From Blakeslea trispora (lineage: Eukaryota > Mucoromycota > Mucoromycetes > Mucorales > Choanephoraceae), in contig JAIWNE010000007.1 in assembly GCA_025331445.1 (NCBI GenBank), forward strand, positions 1 to 64,000: 64,000 nt of DNA, read 5' to 3'. The notes beneath the pieces are model-generated. The model ran no database searches. It saw only the letters and a list, made by a program, of their open reading frames with translations, and was not told where the DNA came from. A program made the translations under genes and the position numbers. Every line of letters begins with the position of its first letter. Within the stretch, counting starts at the first letter, position 1. Shown here piece by piece: positions 27,561-64,000 of the stretch.

Positions 27561-27680
27561 ATAAGCCAATTTACTTTTGACTTATGAATCTTCCCTTACT
27601 TTTAATAAAGGATTCAAGGAGACTCATTTCGCTTAGCCGACTCATTTTTACAACTTACTGATTCATACGTCAAATATCAC
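27561..27680 (+). repeat. Truncated 5' LTR of element D
   Basis: Inner 120 bases of the LTR, ending AAATATCACA, the reverse complement of 24988 to about 25107. The outer part was replaced by the end of element B. Confidence 0.75.
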
Positions 27681-27730
27681 AAGATAAATTATTTTTTTAA
27701 ACACGCAAAAGTCTATTCAGTATTAAGAAA

Positions 27731-32077: not shown

Positions 32078-34992
32078 GAGTGCGTCCAGTTTGTAATCGC
32101 CAATAATTTTTTAGAGGAACTTTTGACCCCTTTCGTCGCCGATTAAAATCGCACCTTAAAATTTGTCTATACTGGATTTTTTTTTATTTATATGAGCTTT
32201 CTATGACTTTTGTATGTTTTAGAAAAATTTTTGACAAGCTCATTTGTCTCGATGGCATCATGACCTTGGCTATATGCTTCTATATACCGATAAGCAAGGT
32301 TTTGCCATTTTCTAATTGTCTTTGTACCATTGGTAACCTGATTACTGTCTAGGAACTTATGGATGTTATCCTTAAGCCCCTTAAACGTGTAGTCACACTC
32401 AAGACGAGCAATGCGTTTGGACTCGGCCCAGTGTCGCTCAATCCAATTGGTTTCGCAATGATACTTTGGATAGAGTGCCATCATATGGCCATTGTTGATG
32501 ATTGTTTCTTCTAGGATTGACTTTTGGTTAACAAAATCATCTTGTGCCGACAGTATTTTCTATAGACAACATTTGTCACCAGTATGCTCATCATTACATT
32601 TTTTCAAGAGCGAACAGTCTTTTTGAATGAGCCGTCTTTCCAAAAGGATTTGGAAAGTGCCTTTAAAGTACTCAACCTAGGATGATGAGTTAAAAGTTAT
32701 CGGAGAGTTGATTTTTTGTAATTGCAAAAAAAAAAAAACTTACGGGTCTAGGGAACTGTAGCTTTTGTACTAAAAAAGTTCTCAAAGCATTTTCTGTTCC
32801 AAAACGCTTTCTTGGTCCTACTTGGGGCTTGAGTCTTTTAAATTCAGTCTTGAATTTCCTAAAATCAATATTGCGCATGAAGTACATGCTTTGTATCATG
32901 GCTTGATCTGATTCTGGATCTCTGTAGAAGCCGTCTCGAAAGCGATAGGGTGATTCTGCTTTGTAGGGGATTTCCCCAGAAGACATTCTACTCGCAAGTA
33001 AGGCATCATTGCCAAATGCACGATGATTTTGACTTTGATCAAAAGCAAACAAACCAATACAGTCAGGATGCAACAACTCAAAGAGCGGAAGTACATCCTC
33101 CTTGAGTTGTGCATTGAGGTCCTCACATTTCCACCAGTTGTCTCCCCCTGGATAGAAAATCGTTCTTGATGACCTCTCTTCCCCGTTGACCAAAGCCTTC
33201 ATAGTACCATGGCAAGCGCACATGAATTCTGACACCATGACAGACTTGCCCTGGCCTTTAGGCAATATAGCCGATTCGGTAGGTAATTGCCAGCGAGTCT
33301 TCTTTCCATCGTTGGCATAGAAGGTGCTCTCATCATGAGTGACAAGAACTACCTTCTTTTCTTCATCTAGAAGGGTTGGTTGAACAACCTCTTCTTCATT
33401 ACCATATGGATAAAACTCCATCCTCTTCTTCCACTCCATCATCTGTCTTGCCCATTGAAGACGATATTCCTTTACATCTTGTTTTTCATGACCATCGATG
33501 TACATAAAGTCTTTGCCAGTACTCTTGTAGTCAAAGCCCCACAGTTTCAGGTATTTTGAAACTGTGGTTTGGCTCAGAGACTTAAGCTTGTTTCCTAGCT
33601 CTTCACTTATTATGCTTGTGCTCAAAACATCAGGCAATATCACCTTTCTCACATGGTCAACTAAGCCTCTTGTTGATCGCTGATTGGGCTTTGTTTCTCT
33701 TAACCAGTCAAGGCATCTCTGCTTGATGTCCTCATCTAAAAACAGCGACACTCGCTTAGCGAACTTGCCTTGTCTTAAGACAGGGATATCTCCAGTCTTA
33801 AGAAGAGCCTTAGTCCACATGCGAATACTCTTTGCGTGATAAGACTCGGATGGGGACAACCAGGTTGTAGCTGCTGCTTCTTGGCTTGCCTCCATGGCAC
33901 CTTTTCCATCTTTGATGCGCTTGAGGTAGGCAAGAACAGCTTGATAGCGAAAGGTATCATAATGGCCATGCAAAGTTTGGACAACTCGGGAGTTTGCTAC
34001 TGACTTCAGCAACTCACTAAGCTTACTGATAGCACTGGAGATATCCAAGACGTCAGCTTCTTCTACTTCCTCTTCTTCTTCATCGGCTCTGACTTCAGCA
34101 GACTGTTCCTTAGAAATCTGAAAATAATCAGATATTTTTGATGAGCCTTCTGCCATCATCCTATTTTTTTGCTTTCTTTTTCTGATCGCTCTGTCGGTCA
34201 ATTGAAAAGTTCTTGCATGTTTTCTTTTCTTGTTGATTTCTGGGTTGTTGTTGTCCCATTTCAAAGTGTCATGCAAACACTTTGTATTCTGATCTTCAAT
34301 GTTGTCTAACATTTCTAATTCAATCTCTAAACTTTCTTCACCATCACTCTCTGAAATAAATTCAAAGTCGAAACATGATTCAATAGTAGGATACTCAAAG
34401 TTACTGTTGTCTTCATAATCGAACGAAGTATCGTCGATAGAAGAGACGCCTTCATTTTCGATCTTATTGTTCTATCTTTAAATTAAATTGCACAACTCAA
34501 AAGACACTTGATTCCATACCAATGCTTTTTCAGCTTCAACTTTTTGATTATGTCTGTCTTGGTTGAACTTTTTAAGCTTCTGAAGGTTTTTGCTTGGACG
34601 ACCCATATTAAACTTTGCGAAAAAGGAACAGACAAAAAGTTCTGTTAAACAATTTTAATAGACTAGGATTCTGACTGACAATGTAGCACAAACTACCATT
34701 TTAATATATCGGAGTTTGTTCTTGTAACACCGATTACTATATTATTGGTTGAAACTTATGTGTGCCTATAATTAGACATCAGAGGAACTTTTAGGTCGAA
34801 GTGAAAAAAAATAACTCGAGATAGAGACAAGATATAAAGAAAAGGAGGCCGAGGATCGATAGAGAATTAAATTTTGAACAGATTGTCGGCCTCGCTTTTT
34901 AATTTTGTCTGCAAAAAAAAGTTGCTATTTTGCTCCAAAAGTGCCAAAAATTTTCACCACCAAACTGTGGCGATTACAAACTGGACGCACTC
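32078..34992 (-). mobile_element. TA-inserting DDE transposon F inside G
   Basis: 2915 bp with ends GAGTGCGTCCAG and CTGGACGCACTC, flanked by TA at 32076-32077 and 34993-34994. The inverted repeats extend at least 24 bases (to TTTGTAATCGCC). A TA target fits the IS630-Tc1-mariner superfamily. Confidence 0.85.
32188..34606 (-). pseudogene. Large DDE transposase of F, one stop
   Basis: Three exons keep phase: 34606-34520 (MGRPSKNLQKLKKFNQDRHN), 34471-32744 and 32676-32188, 768 codons in all. An acidic stretch (RADEEEEEVEEADVLD) and a helical DNA-binding region precede the catalytic core. Likely catalytic residues lie in VTHDESTFYANDG, FAFDQSQNHRAF and NWIERHWAESKR. The only defect seen is a TAG at 32560-32562 after CNDEHTGDKCCL. 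The core resembles a fungal branch of Tc1/mariner-like transposases; the exact family name is not certain. Confidence 0.8.
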
Positions 34993-35563: not shown

Positions 35564-36421
35564 GCAGACTAAACAATATGTATAAATAAATGTGAAAACA
35601 AATAATCGTATTTAAACAGTTGATATAAATAATACATAATAAAAAAGGGCGTACTAGTCTTACATTTTTATTTCTTTATATATATATATCTTAAAAACAT
35701 TTAATAAATTAAATTTAAAAAAATATAATAATAAAGTTCTGCAGGGCTCCTAAGTCTTTTGTTGGAAAAGTCTTGCTTACCTGCACGCCAATGTACGTTG
35801 AAATTTTTATACTTACGACATAAGATTGTTCATTTGTTGAAAACACAAAATATTTTATCCGATTGTTGAAAATTGAGGACTGCAGCAAGTGGTATCCATG
35901 GGTACTTAATAGTATATTGTTAATTCATTTTTATATAATTAAGTAGAAAATAAAAAATATAATTTAATACCTTTTTGTGTTGAAAAAGGACAACCTTCTG
36001 TTGTATCATCCTGATTATTAAATTATATTTTTTATTTTCTACTTAATTATATAAAAATGAATTAACAATATACTATTAAGTATCCATGGATACCACTTGC
36101 TGCAGTCCTCAATTTTCAACAATCGGATAAAATATTTTGTGTTTTCAACAAATGAACAATCTTATGTCGTAAGTATAAAAATTTCAACGTACATTGGCGT
36201 GCAGGTAAGCAAGACTTTTCCAACAAAAGACTTAGGAGCCCTGCAGAACTTTATTATTATATTTTTTTAAATTTAATTTATTAAATGTTTTTAAGATATA
36301 TATATATAAAGAAATAAAAATGTAAGACTAGTACGCCCTTTTTTATTATGTATTATTTATATCAACTGTTTAAATACGATTATTTGTTTTCACATTTATT
36401 TATACATATTGTTTAGTCTGC
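35564..36421. repeat. Foldback palindrome H: 406-bp arms, 46-bp loop
   Basis: Arms 35564-35969 and 36016-36421 have equal length without indels. I saw one mismatch (near 35902 against 36083). The loop is 35970-36015. Outer ends are GCAGACTAAACAATATG, partly similar to the ends of G. No ORF is present. Confidence 0.9.
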
Positions 36422-36423
36422 AT

Positions 36424-37635
36424 TGTACAAAGTGCGCTCGATTCAATCTAGCAAAACATGTTTTCCACCCTCCAAAGAGTGATGCGCCCAACAATACGTG
36501 GGACAAAGTCGCTATTGATCTAGGCACATTCGATGTTACAACTCCTAGAGGTAATGACTACCTATTAGTGTGCGTTAACATCTTTAGTAGGTTTGTGATT
36601 CTCAGAGCAATCAAATCCAAAACAGCCCTAGATGTTGCCAAGGAGTTGATACAGATATTTTCCATCATGGGATATCCTAAAGTACTTCAACATGACAGAG
36701 GACTAGAATTCTATAACGAATTGATCAAAAGTCTACGTCAACATATGGGCATTGAATCTGCTCTCTCATTACCTTACACTCCAGCTGGCAACTTGGAAAC
36801 CCATGTAAAGACTGCTAGATCTATCATCCTCAAAATGCTGGACGGATATGAAGAATCATGGGATTTGTATGTCGAAGGTACCATGTATCTGATTAACCAA
36901 CATATATCAAGACTACACAATCATACTCCATTCCAAGTGATGTTCAATCGCCAAGCAAATGATCTCAAAGATTATACAAAAGCTCTATCAAAAATGAATA
37001 TCTCTGACGATTTGATAGACAAAGATAAGTTAAAGAAAGAAATTGAAAGATTCAATAACTATACCATTCCTGAAATTAGGAATCAGATCATTAAAACTCA
37101 AGAAAATGATAATGAGCACTTTGAAAGAAAGCATCGGATACTCAAAGATCCATTCTCCATAGGTGCTAAAGTCATGATCAAAAACATAGAAAACAAGCGT
37201 CGGAAAACAGATGCCAAGTATGAAGGTCCATTTTATGTACATGGTTATACAACCAATGAAAGCTACATCTTGACCGATCGCACAGGCTCCATTCTATCCA
37301 GAAACATCCCTACTTCGCAAATTAAATTAATCGCAAATGAAACGAACAAGTCTGATGAAAACAAAGACATTTATGAAGTTCAAGCCGTGATCAATCACAG
37401 GGAAGTAGAACCAAATGGTATCGAGTATTTAACTACTTGGGTAGGATATCCGGACGAGCAAACATGGCAAAAGCCTGAAGACTTCGACAGTCCAGAAACT
37501 ATCAAAGAATACTGGAAACGACGTAACGCAAACATGCCTACCAAGTCGGGTCAAGTCAAAAGAATCAAAGGATCACGCAAGCGCAAGACTCCTTTCAAGG
37601 AATCTGACGTCAACAAGAAATCCAGATCAAACTAG
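36424..37635 (+). pseudogene. Integrase with chromodomain of chromovirus D, second part
   Basis: It resumes at CTKCARFN, continuing KYIKN at 31620. DDE core: AIDLGTFDVTTPRGN, QHDRGLEF and a shortened GNLETHV where relatives have GNSxxExxV, so the region around the catalytic Glu lost about two residues. The GPY/F stretch YEGPFYVHG and a chromodomain (YEVQAVINHREVEPN, WVGYPDEQTWQKPEDF) follow. The tail is basic. Bases 37636-37904 hold no gene. Confidence 0.8.
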
Positions 37636-46068: not shown

Positions 46069-46501
46069 TGTCGTGTTTGGCTTGTCTGAACATGAATTCC
46101 TTAAGAATTGAAGTCTATTTTTGTATATAAAGATCTACATCATAATTGGATTAAGTAATCCTATCAACGTTATGTCAGTCTAGAATGATTTCATTAGCAA
46201 GTGCTATGAATCTGGACTAAAGAAGATGATAAGCAATAAGTCTTGCTAAAGAAAGTAAAATGTCAATATGTCATTAAAGGTGACACAAACTAGTCTATGA
46301 CATTGTTCTCTTGAATATCCAGATTTAGTAAAGAGTAAAGACTAAAGGAAGTCAAAGACGTAATAGCAATAGTAGATAGCAATTGGTATAAATACTCTCA
46401 TTTATTTTGTTCATAATAAAGGCACACGTAAAACAGTCTCAAACTACTTACTATATTTTTCCTCCTAAAACCTTTATCTATTTTCATACCTAAATATCAC
46501 A
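46069..46501 (+). repeat. 5' LTR of chromovirus E
   Basis: Contains TATAAATA at 46387-46394 and AATAAAGG about 30 bp later, so promoter and poly-A signals overlap as usual in LTRs. TTTTTTAG follows instead of a TGG primer site. Confidence 0.9.
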
Positions 46502-46525
46502 TTTTTTAGTTTGAATTCGATCAAT

Positions 46526-49500
46526 ATGTCTGCCTCTGAACAAACTGCTATGAACTCTCCTGTTGATGTTGAAGCTGGTGTTGCTCCCTCTCCTGTTTCT
46601 CCTGTTGTTGATGAATCTCCTGTTGAACCTGTTGATCAACCTATGGATGTTGAGATGGAATCTGCTGCTGATGAAGGTGACTCGAATGTATTCATCAACA
46701 TTAATGAAAAGGCTACCACCGAGATGTTGTTGAAGTCAGCTGAAGAAGACTTGGCTATGAAGAAGAACAATTACCTGATTTTGTCTGGTCATTACCTCGC
46801 TGCCTCTAAGGTGAACCCCACTTCGCAGCATACCAAGAATGCTAGTGAAGCTCAAAAGGAAGCCCAACGGTTGTACTTGGAAGCTAAGGAGTTGTTGAAA
46901 GTGCTGAAGTCAGTACATACTCCTGTGTCAATGCCGGATGTGAAGAAGAGCATTTTAGTACCTGCTAATCTTCCCTTTCTGCAATTGAATTCTGATGTAG
47001 TCATCAGACGAGAAAAAGATTCATATGATTCTGTATATGATTTCTGTCAAGAATTTGTGACCATTTTGGAAGCTCATTCTTTATCACTGGATGATAACTG
47101 GGAAAGACTTTTGCCTATATGTTTAAGCAAAGAAGATCGCTCATGGTTTGAAGACAAACTGAAGAACAAGGCTTTGAATTGGAAGATGGCTGAGAGCAAG
47201 TTGCTTGATAAGTATGACACTCCATTCCGTAAGTTCTTGAATATGGGCAGGGTCTGGTCTATGAAACAAGAGAAAGGTGAATCTGCTCGTGCTTTTGGTT
47301 CGAAGTTTCAAAAGTATAGAAGACAAGCAGGCCTTGAAGATGGTGTACAGTTGGTTCTTTGTTTCTGGTGGAACTTGCGTCAGGAAGTCCGTGAGGCTTG
47401 TCTCATCCCTTTGTCCGCCAACTATGGTACGAAACTGCCTTCTAAGATAGAAGACATAATTGACTTGGTGAGTGCTACCACTCGTGATTCTTCCTCTTTG
47501 TTGACGAACCCTGGTGAGTCGAAGTCTGCTGCTGTTGCTGGTGAGTTCTCTGGTGACAGAAAAGGAAAGAAGCGTGCTTCGGTTGGTGAAGACAGAGGAA
47601 AGTCTAAGAAGTCTTGGACTTTCAACCAGGCGTTGAAGAAGAAGCAGTGTTATGCCTGCCATGCTCCTTGGGTCCCTGGCCACAACTGTCCAGGTAGAGA
47701 AAGAAACGCTCAAGAAAAGGTTTCGAGAATGGCTGTCCGTTCTGGTGTTTCTGACTCCGAGTCTGGGGCTAGTGCCTCTAAGTGGGCATCGTGTAACGAT
47801 GAGAATACTAGTGCTTTGGCCAACATGGCTTTGAAGTGTAAGTCTAATCAAAAAGATGTAGTCATCAAGAGAGACTTTAAAGAAGTAAGCACTAATATTG
47901 TTTTTCCTATTCTTGTAAACAATTCTATTAGAACATACTCCTTATTGGATTGTGGTGCCACCTTTAGTTCTGTGGATGTAGAGTTTTGTTTGAAGAATAA
48001 GATAGAGATTAGTTATATTGAGCACATCAATAAAAATTTAGTGAATAAGAGTAATTTTCATAAGTTTTTTATTCGTTTGGCTGATAGTAAGTCTTTTGTT
48101 AAGAGAATTGGTACTTGTAAATTGAGTGTTACTTGTAATAATCAGACTATTCAGCGCGAATTCGAAGTGATGAATTTAACTAATAGTAATGAGTATGATC
48201 TCAGTATTGGTACTGATTTCATGTCCTCTTTGGGTATTGGTATTTATGGTTTGCCAATGACATTTGATGATCAGGATTCTAATGAAGAAAGACTTGAAGC
48301 TGATAGACGTTTCAATAATCGTAGTGATCTTCTGGATTCTATCCAAAGAGAGAATGAAAGTAAAGAAAATAATCCTGCTTTAGGTCCTCAAGAGTTTGAG
48401 AAAGTGATGGATTATATCAATCAGTTCATTGATGAAAATCAAGCTATTCCTAAGGGATCGTTTTGTACTATTCCTGAGAGTGTGGTATGTCTGGATACTC
48501 CTGAGAATGCTACTGCTTATCGAGCTCCTTATCCTATTCCTATTGCTATGCAAGAAGTTGTGGATAAACAAGTCCAGGAGTGGTTAGATAATGGTATCAT
48601 TGAGAAAGCTCCAGCCAATACTGCATGGAATACACCTTTGACTGTGGTCTCTAAGACTAATGGTAAGGGTGAGACAACTGGTTATCGTGTATGTCATGAT
48701 CCTAGAATGTTGAATTTGTTGTTGAAGTCAATTGACAGAATGCCTCTGCCTGTGATTGGTGAACTATTTGAAGATTTGAAGGGTGCGAATGTGTATTCTA
48801 CTCTTGATTTGAAATCTGCGTTCAATTCTTTGCGTTTGAATCCAAAGGATGCGCATAAGCTTAGTTTCACTTGGCGTGGTGTTCAGTACAAACCCATTGG
48901 TACAGTGTTTGGTATTAAGCATGTCAGTTCGCAATTCCAAAGAACTATGAGTATAGCTCTTGAAGGATTACCTTTTGTGAGATTCTTTGTGGATGACATT
49001 GTGGTTGCTAGTAAGAACACTGAGGATCATAGAGAGCATTTGAAGCAAGTAATTCAAAGATTGACTAAGGTTAACTTGAAGTTAAATCCTAAGAAGTGTC
49101 ATTTCTTCCAGAAAGAAATTTATCTACTTGGTTTCCATATATCTCCTGCTGGTATCACTATGGATCGTAGAAAGTTAGTCAATGTTTTGGATTTCCCCCA
49201 ACCTAAGACTGGTAAAGATATCCAGCGCTATTGTGGTTTGATCAACTACTTTAGAAATCTGATTCCAAATGTATCGACAATAATGGCTCCTTTAGACTCA
49301 TTAAGAAATGAGAAGTCCATTGTGCATTTGTGGAATGAACAGCATCAGATTGCTTTCGATAATTTGAAGAAGGCTTTGTTGAGTGATACTGTATTATCCT
49401 ATCCGGATATGAATGCTAAGTTTTGCATTAGTTGTGATGCTTCTTTGACTGGTATTGGTGCAGTGTTGTATCAAGTCATTGATGGCAAGACAAAGTACAT

Positions 49501-51283
49501 TTCTTTCGTGGCCAAGAGTTTGTCCAAGAGTGAAAGAAATTATTCAGCCACTAAGCGTGAGTTGTTGGCTGTTGTCTTTGCGTTGAAGCGTTTTCACAAA
49601 TATGTGTATGGTTCCCATTTTACCTTGTTTACGGATCATAAGGCGCTTACTTATCTCCACACCCAACGTGTCGCAAATTTGATGATGATTGCATGGATGG
49701 ACACTATTTTGCAGTATGATTTTAAGATCGTTCATTTACCAGGTGTTTCGAATGTGTTGCCGGATGCGTTGTCGCGTCTGTTTGAAGGTAGTGATTCCCT
49801 GCTAAATGAACTGGGTGGGGATAATTGGATCAAGTCGATCATGCGCAATGGAGCTGTCTCCTTGGAACCTTTACCTGGTGTATTGAGTGGTGAGTACTTT
49901 ACTCCTCCCACTGAGAATGAGAGAAATAAGCTATTAGTAGACGAACATTTGAAAGGTCATTTTGGTGCAGAAGCAATAGTTCAAGCCTTGAAGAGAAAAG
50001 GAATTTATTGGAGTAATGCACAGAGTCAAGCCAATGATCTGGTACAAGCATGTGTACAGTGTCAGCGTCACAATATTTCTAGAAAAGGCTATAATCCTTT
50101 ACGTCCTGTAACTGCTCCTATGCCTGGAGATAGTTGGGGTATTGATTTGACTGGTCCCTTTACAATGTCAACTAGAGGAAACGAGTACCTGTTAGTTATG
50201 ATTGACATTGCTAGTAAGTTTTATGTACTTAGACCTATCCCGGATAAGAGTGCTGCTACAATTTCTTTGCAGATCTTGGATATAATCAGTACTTATGGTC
50301 CAATGAGAAAGTTACAGAGTGACAATGGACGCGAGTTTGTGAATTCACTGATGACTTGTATGAAAGAGAATGTTGGGTTTGAACATGCATTGATATCGCA
50401 GTATCATCCTAGAGCTAATGGTGCAAGTGAAAGAGCTGTACAAGCTGCAGTGAATACCATTAAGAAGCTAGTAGTCGGTAATGTAACTGATTGGGATTTG
50501 AAAGTACCTGCTGCACAGTTGTTCTTGAATAGCAAGTATAATGCTAGAACAAAGAGTACCCCTTTCTCGTTAATGTTCGGAAGAAACCCAAATGACTTTA
50601 AGGACTTTAGTTAAGAGAAGGATAATGCGACTGCTGAACAGATTCAGAAAGAGTTGCAAGAGAAAATAAAAAGAATGACTGAGATAGTTTACCCTGCTGT
50701 CTATGAACGTGTAAAGCAAGTCACAGAAAAGCAAAAACAAGTGTTTGATGCTAATCACAAGAAAGTTGAATTTCCTCCTGGATCAACTGTGATGATCCTA
50801 GTGACAGAGAAACAAAATAAGTTGGATCCTAAGTATAAAGGATTTTACACAGTAGTAAGAAAGACTCAGGCGAATACCTATGTGTTAAAGAATGAAAGAG
50901 GTATTCTAGAACCTAGAAACTATCCACCTTCTCTGTTGAAGAAAGTATCTGATAAGATATTAGAGAACAAAGATGACATCTTCGAAGTAGAAGCAATTGT
51001 TGCTCATATGTTGAATGATAAGAACCAGTACCTCTACAGGTGTAGATGGCAAGATTATGATGAATCTTATGATACTTGGGAACCTGCTGAGAGTTTCACT
51101 GATCCAAAATTCATTACTGAATATTGGCAGAGAATTGGTGAAATCCCAGAAAGTATCAAGGAAACAAATAAAGCCAACAAGAAATTGTTGAGAGAACTTC
51201 AAAAGGAAAACTCCGCCAATTCAGGAACAAAGAGAAATAGATTTACAAGAGCCTATCAGAGTAAGAGATCTCGTAGATCATAA
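46526..51283 (+). pseudogene. Gag-pol polyprotein of chromovirus E, one stop codon
   Basis: ATG 46526 (MSASEQTAMNSPVDVE). Gag with LPFLQLNSDVVIRRE and one zinc module CYACHAPWVPGHNC; the first module of the relatives is missing. Protease YSLLDCGATFS, with DCG instead of DTG or DSG. RT: WLDNGIIEKAPANTAWNTPL and active site FVDDIVVAS. RNase H: SCDASLTGIGAVLYQV. Integrase: HLKGHFGAEAI, CVQCQRH, GIDLTGPF, QSDNGREF, NGASERAVQA. Chromodomain: FEVEAIVAHMLND and WQDYDESYDTWEPAES. An in-frame TAA at 50612-50614 after NDFKDFS separates the last 220 codons. Gag and pol share one frame, unlike A, B and D, where frames are broken. Confidence 0.88.
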
Positions 51284-51912: not shown

Positions 51913-51984
51913 AAAGAGTCAAAGAAAATAACACTCAAACGCTCATATATTCTTTATTCTAAACCCATCAAATACCTTACCGAA

Positions 51985-54340
51985 ATGTCTACTCGTATTA
52001 CTGAAAGATGTTACTACTGTCACTGTGATGAATGTGGTGTCCTTCCTCCTCCCAGACCTCTCTTGAATCAAGCTGACCACAACTATCATGTCAGAACAAA
52101 GAAATTTGGTGGCATGAAGTATGCTAAGTGGAGAGCTTCTTACAGTAAGTGTATGACTTGTAAACAACAGCCCTTGATTCTAACTTGCATTTGTTTTTCT
52201 TTTCTATTTAGGTGGAAGAATTGCTACCGCCAATACACCTGCCTACTACCGCAGAAGAGTTGCTAGAACTAGTGCTCCTATCGACGAAGGTAAACAATTG
52301 AATAACTCGTACTGTAGTGTTGAATCATATCTAACTAGCTTATAGTCAACAATGCTCAAAGCAATGTTGATACTTCTGATGTAGAACAATCCGACTCGAT
52401 GGATTATGTCAAGGATGAAGCTGTTGATGATGAAGTTGAAGCCTACAACGATGATATTGAGAGTGCTGATGCCGCTTCTGATGACGAAGATCTATACGAT
52501 GAATTTGTTTCTTGCTGTAAGTAGTATTCTATTATTTCCAGTTAGAACGATAGACTAATTTTCATTGTTTTTTTCACTTAGCCAACAAAATCCCTCAGTC
52601 CGAAACTTCTAAGATTCTGTCATCAATGGTCTTCAAACTCCATAACAGTAATCTTCCAAACGATCAAACTGAAGATGTAATGCAGACACTCAACAGAGTA
52701 CTGGAAATTCATGGGGATGAATATCGTTTTCCAAAGACAGTAGCAACCTTTGTTGATCGCAATCCACTGAAGGCGTTGAGTACAGATGGCATGAAGCATT
52801 ATGCTGCATGTCCATCCTGTCATCATCTCTCAGCAGTCAAGATTAATCCTACAGAAGCAGCAAAGACATGTAATCAGCCGTTGAAAGGTGCCGTTTTCAA
52901 GCCCACTGGCTCTGGCGAGTTCTGCGAAGGTGCGGTATATGATGTTGACAAGAATGTTAAAGACGGTAAACTTGCTCCTCAGCTTGTTTACTCCTACTGT
53001 TCTGTTCCCACCACGTTGAAGAAGTTTTTCTTGCGAAGAGGCTTCGCTGACAAGATCAAAGCCTGGAAAGACAGCACCCCTGCTGAGGAATATCTTTGTG
53101 ATATCTATGATGCTACTGGCTTTCTTGATTTCAAGTCCTCTCCTTCCGAGTCTCCTTTCGTCTATCAATCTGATTACAACCTTCTGCTTACGCTAAACAT
53201 TGACTGGTTTAGTCCTTTCAATACTCAGCATAGCGTTGGTTGTATCTACTTAACCATCATGATCCTTCCGAAGAAAAGCGGCCGAGATTTGAAGCGAAAT
53301 ATGATCCTTGTTGGCGTCATCCCTGGTCCAAGTGAGCCTCCTACTACGGCTATAAACCATTATCTTGTTCCCTTGGTCAAAGACTTGAAGATGCTTTTAG
53401 AAGGTGTGAAGATGAAGATGGTGATGTTGAATGGTACGATTGAATACAATGAGGTAAAGGCATGCTTGTACGCTGTTAGTTCAGACTTACCCGCTACTAA
53501 GAAACTGGCTGCAAGCATGTCCTTCAACAGTGGATACGGCTGCCACATGTGTAAGACATATTTCCCAAGGTTCGATGGTACTGGAAATGTCCGCAACTAC
53601 TGTAACTGGAACTGTAGTCAGTGGGAGTATAGAACAGCTGAAGAGACGAAGAGAAGTTCAGAAGCATGAAAGAATGCAAAGACAGTTGGTGAAAGAAGCA
53701 TGTTGGAGAAGAACAGTGGCGTGAGGTATTCAGTTCTGTTTAAATTACCATACTATTCGTACAAATGCCTTGCTATCGAGCCAATGCACGCTCTCTACCT
53801 TAGTGTCGCTAAGAGGGCTCTTCAAGTTATGATCCCAGAAGGTGCTTTGTCCAAGATAAAAAAGACGATGCAAGAAAATATCGAGTATACCGAGCAAGCT
53901 TCCTGTGCCCCAATGGCCAAAAAAATCACAAAAGAAGGTTTCTCCCATGTTAAAGCTGTAGAATTTAAACACTTCATGACATCCTTTGCCGAACGTGTCC
54001 TGTCCCCTCCTGTCCTCGATGCCTCTGATTATTCATTGATCATGCATCTGATAAACGCCTTGAAGCTTCTAAACAGTAGCGCAATTAAAAAGACCGATGT
54101 TGAAATAGTTCATCAACACTTACTTTCTTTTGCCCAAGGGTTTGAACATCGGTATGGCACCCGCTCTGTGACACCTAACTTTCATTTCATGCTTCACCTC
54201 CGTGAATGCATTCATAAATTCGGCCCAATTTCTTGCTTCTGGGGTTTGGCTTTGAGCGCAACAATTTTTTCATCAAAAATATAACCACGAATCACAAACG
54301 CAATTTTGAAAAGACTTACATGCACAGAATGCAACAAATA
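51985..54340 (+). pseudogene. Tnp2-type transposase of copy III
   Basis: ATG 51985 (MSTRITERCYYCHCDECG) starts a Cys-rich domain. Introns lie near 52146-52211, 52291-52346 and 52517-52581, with GTAAGT or GTAAAC donors, and an acidic linker (DDEVEAYNDDIESADA) comes between. Core motifs: CPSCHHLSAV, FFLRRGFADKIKAWKD, LLLTLNIDWFSPF, SVGCIYLTIMILP, GVIPGPSEPPTT, DLPATKKLAAS and CHMCKTYFPRF; then IEPMHALYLS. A TGA at 53667-53669 stands where Trp is expected, and a frameshift lies near 54245 before FGFERNNFF. It is the best preserved transposase of the set. Confidence 0.78.
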
Positions 54341-54757
54341 TCTTTTCAAACATTATGCTTCTGTTGCTCATTATACATCCAGTTAAATCTCTTCCTTTCT
54401 TCTTTTATTATCTATAGACTTTTTTTCTGTATTAGTGTTCCATATCTTTAAAAAAAAAATTTTAAAAAAGAAAGCATTCGTTATAAAGTGAACGTATAAT
54501 ACCCGAGTCATTTCGAGATGACAATAACTTAGCAAGTCGCGTCTTATAGAGCGTTGCTCTGCAACTGGTTAGCATCCTTGACAGCGTATACATCTCGACA
54601 GATTCATTACTGGCTATTGTGAAAAAATAAAATAAAAGAAAAAGAGAAAAAAGGCTGCATTCCAATCGACGTATTTTAAATAAATCAATTCATGCACCTC
54701 ATAATAATTTCTCATATTTTTCTCTCTCTCTTTTTGAAATCGTCTTAACACTTAACT

Positions 54758-55471
54758 ATGTACCAAGAATCTGAACAACTCACAAACAACGGTATGGAAC
54801 TCGTACCTTTTGGATCAGACAGTTCCATCCACAGAGAACTATCTTCAAGTTCTCTGAAAAGTATGGTAATCCTATGGGTCATGAACAGCTGCAAGAGGAT
54901 GGCCATGTGTTGGTTTCTTTTGCTAAAAGAGCATCCAACAGACTCATTCAAGAGGACTTTGAATGCTTAAAAGCATACTATGAAAGACAATACGAGACAC
55001 CTCTCGAAATACTAAACGAGGTACAAAAATCAAGAAGATCAAGGTGCTTAGATATGTTTACGGTTCTCGTCTGACAGGCCGAAACAATGCAGCACAAATT
55101 TAGGCATTTCGTCCTGACAATTATGAGAATGATGATTTGGAGAGGGTATTGGATACCCAAGGTGAAGAACATCTGCGTGCAGGAACTGTAGAATACTTTT
55201 TCTTTCATGAAACTGTATATCATGAAAACGGCGAGCGCTTCTTGACCAAGCATTGCTTTGCTTTGTTAGTTAGTACAAAAACCCTCGCATTGGTGTAGAA
55301 GAGTTTGCAACAGGCACAAGCGAGACGAATCGTCCTTTTCGTAGGGAATATGAGCAAAAAAGCTCATACAGCATCTTGCCTGTGCATAAGTTATATGTAC
55401 CCATAAGTATCTGTACAACTGAAATCGATGGGGTTTTTATTGCTCTTCCGTTGACAAGAATGTTCTTTTAG
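54758..55471 (+). pseudogene. ORF2 of copy III, frameshifted
   Basis: It starts MYQESEQLTNNGMEL. After shifts near 54840, 55020 and 55100 it matches ORF2 of copy II in order: YGNPMGHEQL, YYERQYETPLEILNEV, YGSRLTGRNN and EHLRAGTVEYFFFHE. The separate start in both copies shows that the split of the transposase is old. Bases 54341-54757 hold a tRNA-like stretch but no gene. Confidence 0.6.
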
Positions 55472-55539
55472 AATAAACAATACACACTTTTTTTTATATA
55501 TTTTTTATGCATTTATTCTAGTTTCAACAAAAAAAAAGA

Positions 55540-56691
55540 CTACAAAAGTTCGTGATCAACAGCCCAAGCGGGTAGATGCACTATGTTTCTTGTGTTTCTG
55601 TTGGTGATTGTCTTCACTACTCGAGATCCCAGTTCGGTCGTTAGGAAGCTGTTGTTTCGCTTTCGGTTGTCAGCAAGACGAAGTTCATCGAGCTTGTCGA
55701 AAAAATCAGTGCACTAGATAAAGGTGTTGGTAAACAGTGTTCTCTTTTTTACATTTATATTTTAACTTACTATTTGCTTTCTATAGTGAGGAACTCCTCT
55801 AGCCCTAAGTTGCCTGCCTTCCTCATTGTATTCATCTTCTTGATCGGAGATCATCTCAGCAGTCAATACTTGCAGACATTCCTCATGTGGACCAAAGATG
55901 CCATCAAGTTCGTTTCGATGATTCTCGTATGTCTCTCTTCTTCTGTCCAAGAGCTAAGTCAAAAAAGCAAATGCATTGTTAAGTAAGAGAGTTTTACAAA
56001 TTCACTTTACACCAGTTGAACTTACATATGTCTTACAAGTGTTGTACTTTGTTCTTTTCTTTAATCGATCTTGCTCGGTTGCGCTTAGTCCTGCTTTTCT
56101 CGTGGTGTGTTTCTGTTGATTGTACTGTTGAGTGAGTACTTCTTTGATGTACCTCTTTGCCATGTCTCTAGGCCACAGGTAATGAGAGGTAGCATAGACG
56201 TACGAGTGACAGTTCAATGTATTCGTAATGATCTGGTTTACATTAGGACCATTGTTGGGACCATTGATCAGTTTTTCATCGAGACTCCAACCAGCAATAC
56301 CCAACTATTTTTCTTGTTCATCTAAGATAATTGACTAGAATGGTTATTAGAAGATGATTTCCTTAAATCAACAGGTATTGATACTAACACGTATTTGCTT
56401 AAGCTCAATTTTTGACCCAGGAAAGCCATGTTTCTTGTCTGCAGCAGGCTTATTGTTAAACTTAGCCTTGAGTTCCTCATGGTCTGCAGACAGGTGGTCG
56501 AACTTGGTCTGGTATAACTCCAAAGACTTTTTCGTAGTATCTAATTCTTGAACCACTTCATCCAATTTACGCTCTATTGCCGAGTTGTTGGAGCGAGGGG
56601 TGGGAATAATACGACGAGAGTTGGTTCCAACAGACGGAATGGCTCTAGTGTTGGTAACGGTATTGTTGTTGGTGGTAGTAGTGTGGAACAT
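55540..56691 (-). pseudogene. Accessory coiled-coil gene of copy III
   Basis: ATG 56691 (MFHTTTTNNNTV). Exon 1: coiled coil ERKLDEVVQELDTTKKSLEL and FPGSKIELKQIR before GTTAGT. Exon 2 has a TAG where Gln is expected just before LGIAGWSLDEKLINGP, then YLWPRDMAKRYIKEVLTQQY. A later exon carries LDRRRETYENHRNELDGIFG and AEMISDQEDEYNEE. The last reads CTDFFDKLDELRLADNRKRN and ends at TAG 55540-55542. Its 3' end lies 68 bp from ORF2. The function is unknown. Confidence 0.68.
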
Positions 56692-56754
56692 GTTAATAAT
56701 TTATAATCAGAGATAAAAAGCAGAAAGGATTAATAAAGCTGTCAGTTACAAAGC

Positions 56755-56762
56755 CTTTTATA
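56755..56762 (-). promoter_or_regulatory. TATA box of accessory gene, copy III
   Basis: Minus strand TATAAAAG, 64 bp before ATG 56691, as in copies I and II. Confidence 0.5.
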
Positions 56763-56942
56763 CTTATAGTATTAGATGTTACGATTTAAAGTAATTTGAC
56801 ACATTTGGAATCTAAATGAAACCTGGCTTGAGCGCCGAATAGATCAGGATAAAATATAGATAGCTAAAAACCAATTAAAATTTTTTCAATCTCTTTTTCT
56901 CTTTCTTTTGTTTCTTTTTGTTTTCTTAAAACTTTTCCGAGT

Positions 56943-57395
56943 GGTTCATGGTATGTATCTCCTTATTAAAAAAAGAAAGGTGTTTATCAATATGAATCAA
57001 TGTATAGTATTGCAAGACAAGTAACTGGTTTTAGTTGGTGCTATGTTTAGTAAGAAAGGGTAAGTGATCGATCATCTTTTTTTAAACCAAATCTAACAAT
57101 GTTTTTCATAGTAATCGATGGCTACTTACTCTATCCTAAAGATGTGTCTAAAGGGCTAAAGACGTCTATTATATGTAATACTGTAAGTAAGAAAAAAGTT
57201 CATGAATGTTTATTTCTTTACTGATATTAACTTGGATTTATCTAAAAGACGCTCTATCCTCTATCTTTATTGCAAAGGCTAGTGGCCATAGTCATTAAAA
57301 GGTAAATAACTTATTTTTTGCTCATTTTTTCGATTGTTTCTAATGACTATTTCTTTATTGTTATAGTTTGGGAGACCCAGTATATAGAGCATTAG
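56943..57395 (+). other. Possible ORF4 of copy III
   Basis: GGTTCATGGTATGTATC is followed by an exon-like segment after TATAG (with one TAG inside), then VIDGYLLYPKDVSKGLKTSI at 57115-57175 before GTAAGTAAG. It shows homology to 1303-1790 but is decayed. Confidence 0.28.
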
Positions 57396-57769
57396 ATTAG
57401 CCAATGATGTACGAATCAAAATCCAATGGATCGATCGTATAAACAATTTTTTTATTAAATAAACCAATTATATAAATGAATCCAAATGACGTTTTCCGTA
57501 TCATACTTTAACCGAGTGGTAAATGAGTAATAATGAATGGCATATCAGCCAATAAAGAAAAGTAATGAGTACCAAATAAAGCATACATCTTTATACCAAG
57601 GTCAAATAGCAAAGGAGTGTATTTGAAATGTTTGTGTAAAAATGTAACGTGGGAGAGCCTATGGGAGTTTAACAGTCTAAAGACCGAAGGAAACACAAAG
57701 AGCTTCTTCAAGCCAATGATATGAAGCATATTTCAATCAAAAGAGCAAATGAGATTAAAGGATTGCCGT

Positions 57770-58006
57770 ATATCAAGGCCTGTAACTCATAAAATTTCCC
57801 TGCTTAAAAAATATCAATTAAACACAGGAAACAGCCTGAAGTTTATAATTTTTGCCTGCTTAAACAACTATAAATTTCACCTAGGATTAGGTCTGTTTTT
57901 AATACTATCAATTAAATGCCAAACTTGTCGCATGAGTTCGAAAATCAACTTCACACACGAAACACCCTGTTCTATCGTGAAGTTCATAATTTTTTTTTCT
58001 GTAGTG
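57770..58006. repeat. Right terminal region of CACTA copy III
   Basis: Diverged subterminal repeats (CCTGCTTAAA, AACTTCAC, ATCAATTAAA) end in TTTTTTCTGTAGTG. They correspond in position to 2205-2552 of copy I. Confidence 0.55.
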
Positions 58007-58440
58007 GCCAGTATAGCTTTAGTGATGCTTTGTCTTTTTAACTCTTAGATATAAAATAAATTTATAGGAAAGAAGCCCTCGTTTATTGTTTCAAAAATAA
58101 AACTACTCTTATACTTCTGTCGACGTCAGCACTAAATCACGTGACTTCAGCTGAATTGGCACTGTTGAGTCTGATACTATCACATCACGTATTAAATCTG
58201 ATACGTTTCCACGCTGTAGTCGTGAAGGACTGAGCCCCGAATAGCCAGTATAGCTTTTGGTAGTGCTTTGTCTTTTAATTCTTAGATATAAAATAATTTA
58301 TAGGAAAGAAGCCTTGTGTTTATTAAAATAAAATAGAATAATTCTTATACTCCTGTCTACGTCAGCACTAAATCACGTGACTCCAGCTAAATTGTTACTG
58401 TTGAGTCTTACACTATCACACCACGTATCAAATCTGACAA
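58007..58440. repeat. Diverged tandem duplication, about 238-bp unit
   Basis: GCCAGTATAGCTTT begins both units (58007 and 58245). They share TAGATATAAAATAA, GGAAAGAAGCC, GTCAGCACTAAATCACGTGAC and TGTTGAGTC blocks. The second unit is shorter. No gene is visible. Confidence 0.75.
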
Positions 58441-60944
58441 CTTTATATCTCCCCAGTATGTTACCTTTGATTCGAACAAGTCAGAATAAAATAAGAAAAA
58501 AAACAAAGGAATAGATAGAAGACTGTAAAAACTATCTTAACACACAGAGAGATACAAATATAAAGGAGATTAGGCACTTGTTAGCTTCAAAGATAGAATT
58601 TGAAGGTAGGAATGAGTTAACAAAATTTAATTTGAGAAATATCAAAAAGAAAATTGATTAATTATCTATAAGATCTAGCAAAATAGGATTCTTATATACT
58701 ATAGAACTTGTATAACTACAATATTAATACAATCACCAATAATACCAAGTACATTAGTGATTTCAGCAACGATCAGACTTTTGGTTTTAAATACATTTCC
58801 TAAACAGGACACAACGTGAACAATAGCTTAAATTTCTGCTTGATAAGCTGTCAAATAGTAACGGTAGCAAATGTTACAACACCGACATTGATCGCAGATC
58901 CAAACAATAGATTAAAGATCTTGACTATAGACACCAAGGACCTACAAGTATAAGACTATCAGTAATCAATTTGAGAGATAACCACAAAAGTATTCCAAAA
59001 ACAGAACGACAAGCCAAAAGAGAGAACATCACCTAGACATCGCTGTGGTTAGTAAAAAAAATAATAATAAAATAAAATATGGATGGTACAAAAATAATAA
59101 AAAAATAAAATCAAACACAGAAAGGGAAAATATAACAATAGAAGAAGAAAAGAAAAGATAATCAAAATACAAATATAAGATACAGGAAGGAACAATGAAC
59201 AAATGAATATGATAAAGATACAAATTGTAGCATTCTAGTTAGGCAATAAAAGTACTTGAGCTGCTGGTATTCTTGAACTTCAAAACAATAAAAGACACAC
59301 GGAAAGCACTGTCATTGGTTACAACTGTTACCAGCTATTACTCATACAATACTTGAGTAATACAGATCAGACTTGCACCAAAAGACCGATATTCAACAAG
59401 AACAACAAAGACAAGAAACCAAGCAACTACATCATATCCTCTCTAGGATACATCCCTTTGAGACCAGCACTACACCCAAAAGGACGTCCACTGCTGCCAA
59501 ATTTAGCGGTGGACGTCGGTTATTTGTACAGCAATTCGGCGTCCGCTGCACAAAAGTGATCGTAAAGTCCCACTGCAAATCCACTGCAGGTCCACTGTTA
59601 GTTGGGACCCGACGATCACTGCTGTGGACTGGACAGATGAAATGCTTGCCATGTCCCCAGTGGATCATACAGGGCGTCCGTCTTATTTACTTTAGCTTTG
59701 TGATTGGATATCTTTTTCGAAGAATCTTTATTTAATTGGCCATTTTTATAAATATACTCAAAAATTCTTTGTTTAATTGGCTTTACATTTGCTATTTTAT
59801 TGAAATTGACATTTCTAATTGGATGATATGGACTTCTTTACACAAATATACTTCTTTACGATTGGACTGTTTACAGTAAATATAGAGGATTAGAGGCTTA
59901 AAAAAGTGGCTTTTATTATAGAAAAAAACTTTTTTTTTATAGAAAATAATGGCTAGTTTATGGGGGAAATGTAGGGGGGAATTCGATCAAATAACCAGGG
60001 CAAATGGCAGGCATCAATCAGAGGAAAAGCCTAGAAATAGACCAGAAACAGGCAAAAACGCTGGCAAAAATGGCAATAAAAAAATGGAATAGATGGCCAG
60101 AATACAGGCAGAAACAGCTTGGAATTTAGGCACAAATGTAACAAAAGCACTGCAGAAACGATCAAAAAACCAGCAATTTTACGGATGGCACAAAAACCAA
60201 AAAACATACAGAACCGTTAGAAGGAGAAATCGAGCAAGGAATCTAAAAATGAATACTTTATCAACAAAACAATTAGATGGGTTGAAAAAGACGTAAATAC
60301 AAAAGAATTACTTACTTGAAACCAGCTAAACCTTGTTATAGACATAATCCAGTACGACCAACCAAAAAAACCTTTTAAAAGGAAGAAATCTATAATAAGA
60401 CAATAAGTTAAAGAGAACCTTTAAAGCTTGATAGTTCACTTACAGTTCAAGAGAAAAGACAAAAGTAGAGACTCAAAAGATGTTACAGGTAAACCATCTA
60501 GAAAAGAATTATCAGAACAGTGTGTAAGCTTTCTATTGTGTAGTATTTACCTTAAGACAATGTCCATTCAGAGAGAAAACGGAAAAGAGAGCCAAATTAC
60601 TTGTTTCTAAAAAAAAGGAGTGAATAAATAGTACAAACAAGCTAAATAATCTTTACCTCAAACAACAAATCATATTACATCCATGTCAAGCAAAAATAGA
60701 GAATAGATGCCTAAGATATCACTCTTAATAACCACTCAATTGAATAAGAAAAAAAAACTTACTTTTTTTTATTTGAAAATAAAGAGAAAAGGAAAGAAAG
60801 GAAAAAAAAAGAAAAAAAGAGAATGAAGAGAGACAATAACTGAAAGTTTTTTTCTACCTGTCAAATCTGGAGTGAAAAAAATAATGACTTACCAATTTAG
60901 TAATAAAAAAGAGAGATCAATTTCCTGTCAATTAATTTGAAAGC
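58441..60944. other. Long region without a recognised gene
   Basis: AT-rich, with A-runs. A G+C-richer patch lies at 59470-59690, where GTCCACTG, CCACTGC or their reverse occur about seven times. A G-rich stretch (ATGGGGGAAATGTAGGGGGG) is near 59960. I see no coding frame worth calling. Confidence 0.5.
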
Positions 60945-60953
60945 TATAAATAA
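60945..60953 (+). promoter_or_regulatory. TATA box of accessory gene, copy IV
   Basis: TATAAATAA, 63 bp before ATG 61008, the same distance as in the other copies. Confidence 0.55.
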
Positions 60954-61007
60954 AGGTTTTCAAAAGACTTGAAGCCATCATCCTTATCCGTTTTTTTTCT
61001 TTACAAA

Positions 61008-62050
61008 ATGAATCGTCAAATCCCCACTGTCGCTGCTTCTACCCCTCGTGCTCCTGTCCGTCCTTCTGTTCGCTCTGTCTCTGCTGCTCGTACCGAAGAA
61101 CATTTTGAAGAGGTCTTTGATAACTTGGACGTGGTTTCTGGACGTCTTGCACAAATGGAATCGCTTCTTATTCAAACTGATACCAGTACCAGTGCTAACA
61201 GAGTCACTATCAATGCTAGAAATCCCACTTTTCTTGTAAGTTATACTTGTTTCATACCACATTTCAGATACTTACGCTTTTGTCTTTTCTAATAGAAGGC
61301 AGTCAAGGACTCATTTGACGATGCAAAGCAAGTAGGTGTCGAATTTGACTATCGCCAGCCAATGAAGACATCGAGTAGAAACCGTTCTGTTTTTGAAGGC
61401 ATTCATCAGAATGCCATCGCCAAAATGAAAGCCCTTTCTGGCTTCTTAGGAGACCAAGAGCTTTCCTTCGAAGTACAAAGATGTCTCGGTGAAAAGGTCA
61501 GAAACCAGTTTGATTTGATCAGAAGGCGCCAGAAAAGAGATGCTTCTTTGCCAGAAGCAAGAACCACGTTCCAAGTCAGTGAGCGTAAGCGCAAGCGATT
61601 GCAGAGAGTAAGTGATAATATAGAAACCCCTTAAAACCGGCAGTAATACTCATCCATCTTTTGAAGAAACTTCGTTCTCGTACTGCCTGCTTTGCTGATA
61701 ACAAGGCAATGATGACACCTCTTTTTGGTGAAGATGAGGAGTGCGCTGCTGTCCTTGACATGAAGTATATGTCGGAAGAAGAAGATGAACAAGAGAATGA
61801 CGAAGAGGATAGCTACTTTCGTGTTCTGGTTCCTTCTTGGCGTTCAGACAAAGTAAGTAGCTAAAGCATCTTTTACCCTTGTTCGTGATACTGACAATGT
61901 TTGTAGTTGAACCAATTTTTCGCTGCTTTGGACAGCATCCATAAGAAGAAGAACAAGGCCATACGCGCTCCTCGATGCCGTGAAGTTGTTGAAAAGGAGC
62001 TGCCTACTGGACGCCACGAAAAGTTTTCTCAATGGGCCATTAGGTCTTAA
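61008..62050 (+). CDS. Accessory coiled-coil gene of copy IV, intact
   Basis: Exons 61008-61235, 61296-61607, 61667-61852 and 61907-62050 all break in phase 0 with GTAAGT donors and give 289 residues. The leader MNRQIPTVAASTPRAPVRPS matches the IPTVGTS leader of copy I. A helical part (EEVFDNLDVVSGRLAQMESL), a basic second exon (RRRQKRDASLPEARTTF, ERKRKRLQR), an acidic block (DEECAAVLDMKYMSEEEDEQ) and a basic tail (FFAALDSIHKKKNKAIRAPR) follow. The last two blocks align with copies I-III. It converges on the transposase at 62673. The protein is unknown; a nuclear DNA-binding helper is plausible. Confidence 0.75.
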
Positions 62051-62319
62051 AGTGCTGTTGTTTTTTGTCTCTTTGTTGCTTTTTTTTTCCTTTTAATAAA
62101 TAAATATTTGAATCAGTCAAGTTACCATTTCAAAACATAAACCTAATACTTAGCTTGTTCATTTCTAACCACTTGATTTCTTCTTTTGCGTTGATCGAGT
62201 TCTAAATGTTAAATAGACAAAACGTAAATAAAGGTAAAATGAGGAAATAATAAAAAACGTAGACAAAAAATTTAAAGGAATGAAATGTATTTATTAAAAA
62301 ACCGCAAGGCAAAAAAATT

Positions 62320-62470
62320 GGAAAGGCATAGAAAGAAAGTCATAAAAAAGGCATAGGTAGACATAGCATAGGAAAAGCATGGGTAGGCATAGCATAGGAA
62401 AAGCATAGGTAGGCATAGGACAAAAAGGCATAAGCGAACATAGGGTAAAAGGGCATAAGTGAACATAAAC
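62320..62470. repeat. Imperfect minisatellite
   Basis: GGCATAGGTAGGCATAGCAT and close variants with GGAAAAGCAT repeat in tandem. It lies in the 3' spacer between the accessory gene and the transposase. The rest of 62051-62672 holds no gene. Confidence 0.75.
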
Positions 62471-62672
62471 AAAAAAATTAAGCAATGAGCTTTGGTGGCA
62501 ATGGCATGACTACATGACGATTCGTAAAATGGTTAAGAACAATTGCTACTTGGCTGTGTAAATGAACAACAGGTATGATAGAAGCGTCTGAATCATCTTC
62601 AAAACCAGCAATCAGTGTTTCCATGCCATACATAGAGGAATCTTGATTATTAAAGTAGTATAATGCATCACT

Positions 62673-64000
62673 TTACTTATTAAACCATTTAACATAGGCA
62701 AGGGTATGAGGTCTTGACACTGCTATACCATCTTCATCTACCACTTTGACAGTACTTCTAAAGATACTATGAACCTGGCAATACCTAAGAACTAAGCCGT
62801 GGACACCTGGATAATATGCCACTGCATATGAACCTCGTTTGCGTAGTGTAGATGCTTCGATAGAGTTGAACTTGTTACCAAGAATGTTGATATACTTGTA
62901 AGTTAACACTTTGCGTTCAGCAGGTAGGCGGCTTGAGTTTGCAGTTGTAAGGAATTCATCGATGTACCTGTCACCGTGCACACTGTTGTAGAAAGATATA
63001 AGACAAGAAAACACTTCTCCGTTCAATGTAGACATCTTGGGCTTGAGAGACGATACAGTTATGAGAGGGAGTTCCTCATGACCATATGCACCAACGGTAC
63101 CGGTATACAAGTCGTAGAAGCTCAAGAGGTCGAATATCTTGTCGCTGGTATTGTATACGCTGGCCAAGGACTTGTCACCAAGAAAGAAAGATTCGACTTG
63201 CTGTTTGTTCTCTTTTGGAATAGAATCCATTAACTCTCTCACCGAGTCTTCGTTATGTACATCTAACAAGAACTTGTCAATGTATGTGCGCTCAACGCAG
63301 CCTTTTCGGTTCGTTCTAATTGTCTTCAGGTCTTGATTGTATCGTTCGAAGTTGAACAACCAGTAGGACGGGGAGGTAGAGTAGTCGAGAATCGTTTCTT
63401 TCAGATGAAGAGCGTTGTGGAAGTTGATCGTGATCAAAAATTTATCATGATAAATCTCTTCAAACCCAACCAAGAAAGACTTCAACTGGTCATGTGCAGT
63501 ATCAAGCTCCGAGAGGGACAAACAAGGAGAGAGGGGAATTCTTGAAGCCTTGACCAAAAGCATCCAATGTTCATATGGCTTTTTTTCAAGACGTTGCGGA
63601 AGTAGATAAGGAGACAACACCAACAACCAGGTAGCCCACTCGTCTGCCTTGAAGTTAGAAAAGCCGTTGCCAATGGTAATCTTTCTTGCAATGGACGATA
63701 CAGCGTGGCTGGGGGAGGATAAACTTGCTCTCCAATATCACTTGCATTTCCTTCAAATGGGCGGGTGTGAGCTTGGGCAACGATCGTCTACTGGATGTTG
63801 TAAAAACGCCTGTCCATATGCTTGCCATTTTTTTTTGTAAGGCCAAGAAGTAGATTGTGCATTATGTCGATACCAACATGACGGATTGGATCGAAATATC
63901 GCAAATCCAAGAGAACACTCCAACGGGTACCGTTTTGCCTTTCTTTTTCTTTGCGAGCACTTTCAGTTCTTGTTTGCAGCCATTCTTGCGCTTGTCTTCT
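62673..64000 (-). pseudogene. Tnp2-type transposase with fused C-terminal domain, copy IV (runs off edge)
   Basis: From the edge it reads RWSVLLDLRYFDPIRHVGID, MHNLLLGL, then GFSNFKADEWATWLLVLSPY, FHNALHLKETILDYSTSP and YWLFNFERYNQDLKT, all typical of Tnp2 family C-terminal halves. A final domain, about 63000 to 62673 (VFSCLISFYNS, ILGNKFNSIEAS, GVHGLVLRYCQVHS, HTLAYVKWFNK), corresponds to the separate ORF2 of copies II and III. A frameshift lies at a C-run near 63710. The stop is at 62673-62675. The N-terminal half lies outside the window. Confidence 0.75.

Follow-up and report, generated by a model that had tools for sequence, protein, structure and literature searches.

Which gene accompanies the Tnp2 transposase in the CACTA transposons of the fungus Blakeslea trispora, and what might its product do? 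The question is raised by a stretch of 64,000 bases (C253:1-64000 of the 37.2-Mb B. trispora assembly, called the window here) in which four elements, E1 to E4, each carry a copy of the same accessory gene. The elements of the window are CACTA transposons, a kind marked by CACTA termini, a Tnp2 transposase and, in four of the eight elements of this genome that were checked, 3-bp target duplications. CACTA elements are known mainly from plants. In plants the protein TNPA binds subterminal repeats, and TNPA and TNPD are both required (PMC2613891; papers are cited by PMC number from excerpts of their text). It is proposed here, with a probability of about 0.6, that the CACTA elements of this genome carry the accessory gene as their second standard gene, and that it encodes a TNPA-like, repeat-binding partner of Tnp2 that has no sequence kinship to plant TNPA.

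An accessory gene family and its pairing with Tnp2

All four copies in the window are members of a single accessory gene family, which is split deeply into two branches, and a preliminary description of the window had already placed them in one family. Branch A comprises 446-1097, 7199-8857 and 55543-56691, and branch B is represented by 61008-62050. A profile comparison of the two branches gave a probability of 98.1 and an E value of 8e-14 over 195 columns. Identity to the E3 protein is 66, 49 and 39% for members of branch A, and identity to the A4 protein is 23-24% for those of branch B. E3 and E4 contain complete genes of four exons each, with 101, 93, 61 and 57 codons in E3 and 76, 104, 62 and 47 codons in E4, so all three introns are in phase 0 in both. 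Introns 2 and 3, placed by eye, fall at the same alignment column in the two branches; intron 2 precedes LLDRRR in branch A and KLR.RT in branch B, and intron 3 precedes CTDFF and LNQF, respectively. Invariant residues across the branches include G..EC..VL, S..EDE, P..R, F...LD and P.W. The accessory protein has a coiled coil, and the isoelectric points for branches A and B are basic for exon 2 (9.7 and 10.4), acidic for exon 3 (5.1 and 4.1) and basic for exon 4 (8.2 and 10.3), the cut points in branch B being one or two residues off. A common order of parts had been described for all four copies. It holds for branch A, but the 61008 copy is without FPGxKxELxxxR and W..DEKLINGP and retains the basic region, the acidic block (EECAAVL..MSEEEDE), P.WR, FF..LD and the final W. 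The copy described at 443-1097 shows exons 1 and 2 only; its acidic block and tail are not visible, the contig beginning at base 1.

The family has no evident relatives in the databases searched. Protein searches at E values of up to 0.001, 1 and 10 returned 0, 7 and 6 proteins, all from B. trispora, in a database whose content of other fungi was unchecked. Among 13 accessory proteins scanned against Pfam there was no match above cut-off, and no TNPA or TNP1 family was matched at E values up to 1. No match to a known host family came up in the protein or Pfam searches, and such an identity is rejected within the reach of that database; the preliminary description had named a match of this kind as evidence against its proposal. 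DUF4616 (PF15394) gave sub-threshold scores in three of the 13 proteins (19.1 in P0001, 18.0 in P0003 and 14.1 in E3, against a 27-bit cut-off), and this match spans the basic and acidic parts in both branches. A search of the genome with the PF15394 profile gave no match, perhaps because the gene is split into exons. DUF4616 is known from animals. It is a lead and not a membership; if real, the remote tie would mean an old partner domain of transposons. The predicted structure of the branch B protein is all-helical, with an overall predicted local distance difference test score (pLDDT) of 62 and a predicted template modelling score of 0.34. Ten-residue blocks with a mean pLDDT of at least 70 lie at 71-150, 171-210 and 241-260. 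A sequence search of solved structures found nothing below an E value of 0.1.

The ends of the elements were fixed by comparing near-identical copies. The elements are about 8 kb long as delimited by paired termini (for example C217:234809-242787). The termini, read at both ends or at the one readable end, are CACTACAGAAAA in branch A and CACTACACCCAAA in branch B. The branch A terminus pattern CACTACNGAAAA occurs 108 times versus 46 for its reversed-pattern control, and the branch B pattern CACTACACCNAAA occurs 41 times versus 7. CACTAC starts and ends the elements C271, C217 and C21. Both flanks were read in eight elements, and an identical 3-bp target duplication was found in four of them (TGT/TGT in C271, CCC/CCC in C217, GTG/GTG in C21 and TTC/TTC in C67); the flanks of C154 and C193, among the same eight, have no matching 3-bp duplication. 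E4 and its nested neighbour fit a 3-bp duplication except for one extra base. The left flank of E4 reads CAG. Its right flank reads CA and then runs into the neighbour, C253:67871-75858; behind the neighbour stands GGCAG, so that both duplications are restored except for a single extra G. In C253:59468-75858 the neighbour, a branch A element, lies 2 bases past the right-hand end of E4, a branch B element, and these nested insertions can be ordered.

How general is the association with Tnp2? The Tnp2 family PF02992 has 148 matches in the B. trispora genome and none in 14 control genomes, and it scores above cut-off in the window open reading frame (ORF) 52554-53669, in L078 and in L077. There are at least 160 accessory loci and at least 174 Tnp2 loci in the genome; loci are clusters of exon matches, and the counts are therefore lower bounds in which fragments are counted too. 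The accessory queries were A, B, A4, A5, B2 and D, and the transposase queries were PF02992 and the A1 Tnp2. All matches listed for A, B, PF02992 and the A1 Tnp2 were used. Query A is represented by its best 150 of 230 matches, and A5 (218 matches), A4 (201) and D (164) are likewise represented in part; from the matches of A5, P0005, A4 and D, those that add or extend a locus were taken and those that repeat a known locus were dropped. At 115 of the 160 accessory loci listed, Tnp2 lies within 3.5 kb past the accessory 3' end, in convergent orientation at 107 and in tandem at 8; one further locus, E1, has only another element's Tnp2, upstream. In 200 random placements on the same contigs, each confined to the contig span from the first base to the last match, the mean number of pairings was 27.7 and the maximum 41, and the mean number of convergent pairings was 15.2 and the maximum 27. 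The copies had been described as residents of CACTA/Tnp2 elements, and this is borne out for the family at large; its members do not lie mostly far from Tnp2. The view of the four copies as isolated cases is ruled out by the number of loci, and chance similarity among them is likewise rejected.

It was predicted that intact unpaired Tnp2 loci hold a divergent partner, and this prediction held: the number of paired loci rose from 99 to 115 of the 174 listed. The divergent query was the C130 accessory gene, which is 37% identical to A4 over exons 1 and 2 and has the same exon plan. Among the newly paired loci is a group of Tnp2 proteins that is 52% identical to A1 and has open frames of 517-604 residues (C102, C222, C217, C27 and C50), and the partners of these matched at 29-30% identity. 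One member of the group, C169:5311, remains unpaired.

The tail-to-tail arrangement had been reported for the three window copies with a visible transposase, and it stands for these (Tnp2 at 52554-53669, at 4040-4819 and, just past the window, at C253:64076-64549). In lineage A4, however, Tnp2 runs in the same direction as the accessory gene in all seven copies that have a downstream side; the other two of the nine copies are at contig starts. It is thus the pairing that is conserved and not the tail-to-tail arrangement, and universal convergence is ruled out. In L078 the order of the ends and the accessory gene is kept and Tnp2 alone is inverted. A further arrangement is seen at C217:255034-262443, where two branch B elements stand head to head like an inverted dimer; about 360 bases separate their divergent accessory genes, and a Tnp2 lies on the outer side of each.

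Subterminal repeats and the proposed role of the accessory protein

The lineages carry their own subterminal repeats, which are concentrated at their own ends, and some ends have been exchanged between sublineages. Repeats are present at both ends of whole elements of A1, A4 and B. Counted at the accessory end, the transposase end and the interior of whole elements with at most one mismatch, the A1 motif CATGAGTTATA occurs 6/1/0 times in C271 and 5/1/0 times in C217, the A4 motif ACACAAGTTTA 5/2/0 times and the B motif GTCCACTGC 6/2/2 times. None of these four elements has another lineage's motif at its ends, apart from TGTGAAGTTGA, from A2, which occurs twice in the A4 accessory end; in the interior, ACACAAGTTTA occurs twice in each A1 element and GTCCACTGC once in A4. 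Further motifs in A3 (C169) and A5 (E2) were each seen at one end only. The longest word common to both ends is 16 bases in A1 and 17 in A4, lengths reached in none of 300 shuffles. The repeat CACAAGTTT had been put forward as the site of the 61008 protein, and this assignment is not supported; CACAAGTTT belongs to A4 (E1, 2323-2552), and the element of the 61008 gene carries GTCCACTG.

The suggestion that the family is an unrelated counterpart of TNPA, made in the preliminary description, fits the pairing, the purifying selection described below, the lack of a TNPA/TNP1 match in Pfam and the lineage repeats at both ends. In its favour, too, the partner diverges faster than the transposase (between A1 and A4, 48% identity against 69%), as TNPA does relative to TNPD in plants (PMC2613891). 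We infer DNA binding, bridging of the ends, contact with Tnp2 and a need for the protein in transposition. The basic parts encoded by exons 2 and 4 would bind the subterminal repeats of the protein's own element, of which the accessory side has several and the transposase side one or two. The coiled coil would pair accessory proteins and so draw the element ends together, the acidic block may contact Tnp2, and Tnp2 would cut at the CACTA termini. An alternative is that the protein is a regulator or anti-silencing factor which acts on promoters or chromatin, outside the cutting complex. Maize TNPA also acts on the element promoter and its methylation (PMC1636069), and the acidic block of the accessory protein would suit such a function. 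The repeats, however, lie at the two ends of the element, also at the one remote from the accessory gene, rather than in the promoter region of the interior, and a regulator is considered unlikely.

The accessory protein could also have a structural place in the Tnp2 complex, as a subunit that attaches to Tnp2 and not to DNA, with Tnp2 alone reading the repeats. The pairing with Tnp2 would be expected of such a subunit, as would the coiled coil and the acidic block. A1 and A4 have similar Tnp2 proteins (69% identical) and related motifs, although their accessory proteins are only 48% identical. The basic character of exons 2 and 4 argues against a purely structural subunit, as does the finding that lineages with Tnp2 cores 60-70% identical have different motifs; this alternative is thought to be quite unlikely.

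The accessory gene is under purifying selection. The ratio of nonsynonymous to synonymous substitution rates (dN/dS) is 0.08-0.24 in 14 of the 15 pairs among six A1 copies, and 0.35 in the remaining pair, for which dS is 0.03. Between A1 and A2 it is 0.11-0.19 at dS above 1, and in branch B it is 0.21, 0.36 and 0.53, the last two values involving a damaged-looking copy. This selection speaks against a host gene that was captured once and is carried as a passenger with no role in transposition. So does the distribution of the gene, which occurs in the two deep Tnp2 branches and also in more divergent ones, where its exon plan is unchanged. Captured genes such as TET/JBP are indeed found in fungal DNA transposons (PMC12730594), and the function of the accessory gene is a putative one, but a passenger is very improbable.

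Several observations weigh against a repeat-binding partner of Tnp2. No Tnp2 was found near 44 of the 160 accessory loci listed, and 59 of the 174 Tnp2 loci listed are still without a partner. Tnp2 also differs between lineages and could itself read the repeats. As to words common to both ends, B ends share an 11-mer (1 of 300 shuffles) that is equalled by two cross-lineage pairs, and A2 ends share only a 10-mer (39 of 300 shuffles); cross-lineage end pairs reach 7-11, and only A1 and A4 therefore stand clear. A fold search with the branch B model (pLDDT 62) gave no DNA-binding or otherwise usable match. The exchange of ends is a further difficulty. A1 accessory-side ends are of one type in all 13 read, and native A2 ends (C154, C28, C67 and C26) are of another type, with ATGAACTTCACG. 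In E3 an A1-type body is joined to an A2 end (98.3% identical to C67 and 61.3% to A1), and in C253:67871 and C193 the transposase-side ends are of the A2 type and the accessory-side ends of the A1 type (98.3 and 98.7%). Between E3 and C253:67871 the region upstream of the accessory gene is 98.4% identical and the proteins 66%. The end of C222 (B2) is 99% identical to B1 over 400 bases, and the proteins are less than 50% identical. The A1/A2 exchange and the common B1/B2 end mean that the repeat type is not strictly tied to the accessory lineage, and a strict link between the two is ruled out; since the ends recombine, a one-to-one tie between protein and repeat is not proven.

A broader reading is offered tentatively, at somewhat less than even odds. 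It holds that an end-recognition family was built independently of plant TNPA and diversified within one fungal genome into many specificity classes (A1-A5, B and others further diverged), each of them marked by a repeat of its own, while Tnp2 stayed similar. If true, the family would provide a natural series for the co-evolution of proteins and their sites, and the exchanged end blocks would be built-in swap experiments.

The four elements of the window

The features of the window are collected in Table 1. The exons of E1 are 95-96% and 90% identical to lineage A4, and E1 is therefore placed in that lineage. The 354 bases at 70-423 are absent from a related copy in L078 and have a 5-base overlap at the joint, which resembles an insertion in the E1 accessory gene. 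For E2, the start codon and 3' part of Tnp2 were placed by visual inspection and by their similarity to those of other elements, ORF 4040-4819 matches PF02992 at an E value of 2.4e-6, slightly under the family cut-off, and the far (accessory-side) end was not found. E3 is truncated at about 51924; its accessory gene is intact despite the stops in its Tnp2, and its end derives from another sublineage. E4 spans 59468 to C253:67869. A conserved stretch upstream of the accessory gene, on the opposite strand (56692-57420, 1098-1960 and 8858-9303), has repeated GTAAGT-like sites and resembles a spliced transcript, with no convincing reading frame found by eye. Ty3/gypsy-type retrotransposon genes, several with a chromodomain, occupy much of the window between the CACTA elements.

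Table 1. Positions of elements, genes and element ends in the window (bases of C253)
Feature	Position	Strand	Details
E1 (lineage A4) accessory gene, exons 1-2	783-1097 and 446-766	-	remainder broken by the extra sequence 70-423 and by the start of the contig
E1 accessory-side end	2323-2552	-	CACTACAGAAAA terminus and ACACAAGTTTA subterminal repeats
E2 (lineage A5) transposase-side end	2555-2640	+	CACTACAGGG terminus with TGTCGGTTAAA repeats
E2 Tnp2 gene, approximate limits	3386-7138	+	pieces: ORFs 4040-4819, 4812-5774, 6326-7138
E2 accessory gene (branch A, lineage A5)	7199-8857	-	about 500 bases of extra sequence inside
Ty3/gypsy-type genes	9942-14201, 17644-34471, 36310-37635, 46469-51283
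E3 Tnp2 gene, approximate limits	51985-55475	+	PF02992 in 52554-53669 (E 2.3e-9); internal stops
E3 accessory gene (branch A), complete, 312 codons	55543-56691	-	exons 56389-56691, 56026-56304, 55771-55953, 55543-55713
E3 accessory-side end	57767-58006	-	98% identical to the end of an A2 element; E3 body A1-like
E4 accessory-side end	59468-59640	+	CACTACACCCAAA terminus and GTCCACTG repeats
E4 accessory gene (branch B), complete, 289 codons	61008-62050	+	exons 61008-61235, 61296-61607, 61667-61852, 61907-62047
E4 Tnp2 gene, 3' part	62673-64000	-	extends past the window; PF02992 at C253:64076-64549

Comparison with known CACTA systems

No Mucorales partner gene of this kind was found in the titles and abstracts of the literature, a search with most subscription journals outside its scope. 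SmTRC1 and the animal and fungal TRC elements of the CACTA superfamily share the Tnp2 domain and have a postulated TNPA-like protein, PrA (PMC1636069). They differ in that, in the animal elements described, the termini begin with CCC and the duplications are of 2 bp, and in that PrA arises by alternative splicing and, in the excerpt of that paper, was not found in fungi (PMC1636069). The authors who described SmTRC1 mention fungal relatives that include Rhizopus (PMC1636069). Fungal EnSpm and Plavaka elements have related transposases, with 3-bp duplications in EnSpm, but the extra genes reported for them in the excerpts are TET/JBP dioxygenases and the termini of Plavaka differ (PMC12730594).

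One genome holds more than 100 partner genes in several diverged lineages. Each lies beside a recognisable transposase, a defined repeat goes with several of them, and whether each protein reads its own repeat can therefore be asked directly. If each does, the family would be a set of new sequence-specific DNA-binding proteins, and it would suggest that CACTA elements gained a TNPA-like partner more than once.

The closest comparison is with the plant CACTA elements of the En/Spm type and their TNPA and TNPD/Tnp2 proteins. Plant Spm has one spliced transcript unit, whereas in B. trispora the accessory gene is separate and usually convergent (PMC2613891, PMC1636069), and the accessory proteins differ from plant TNPA in having no TNPA/TNP1 match in Pfam. 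A variable ORF2 is also described in plants, its function given as unknown in the excerpt of PMC8978399. Plant TNPA-like proteins share little similarity among themselves, and the speed of their co-evolution with the repeats has been named as a question for the future (PMC2613891). The plant elements and those of B. trispora are alike in their CACTA termini, 3-bp duplications, Tnp2 transposase, faster-changing second protein and repeats that lie near both ends in unequal number.

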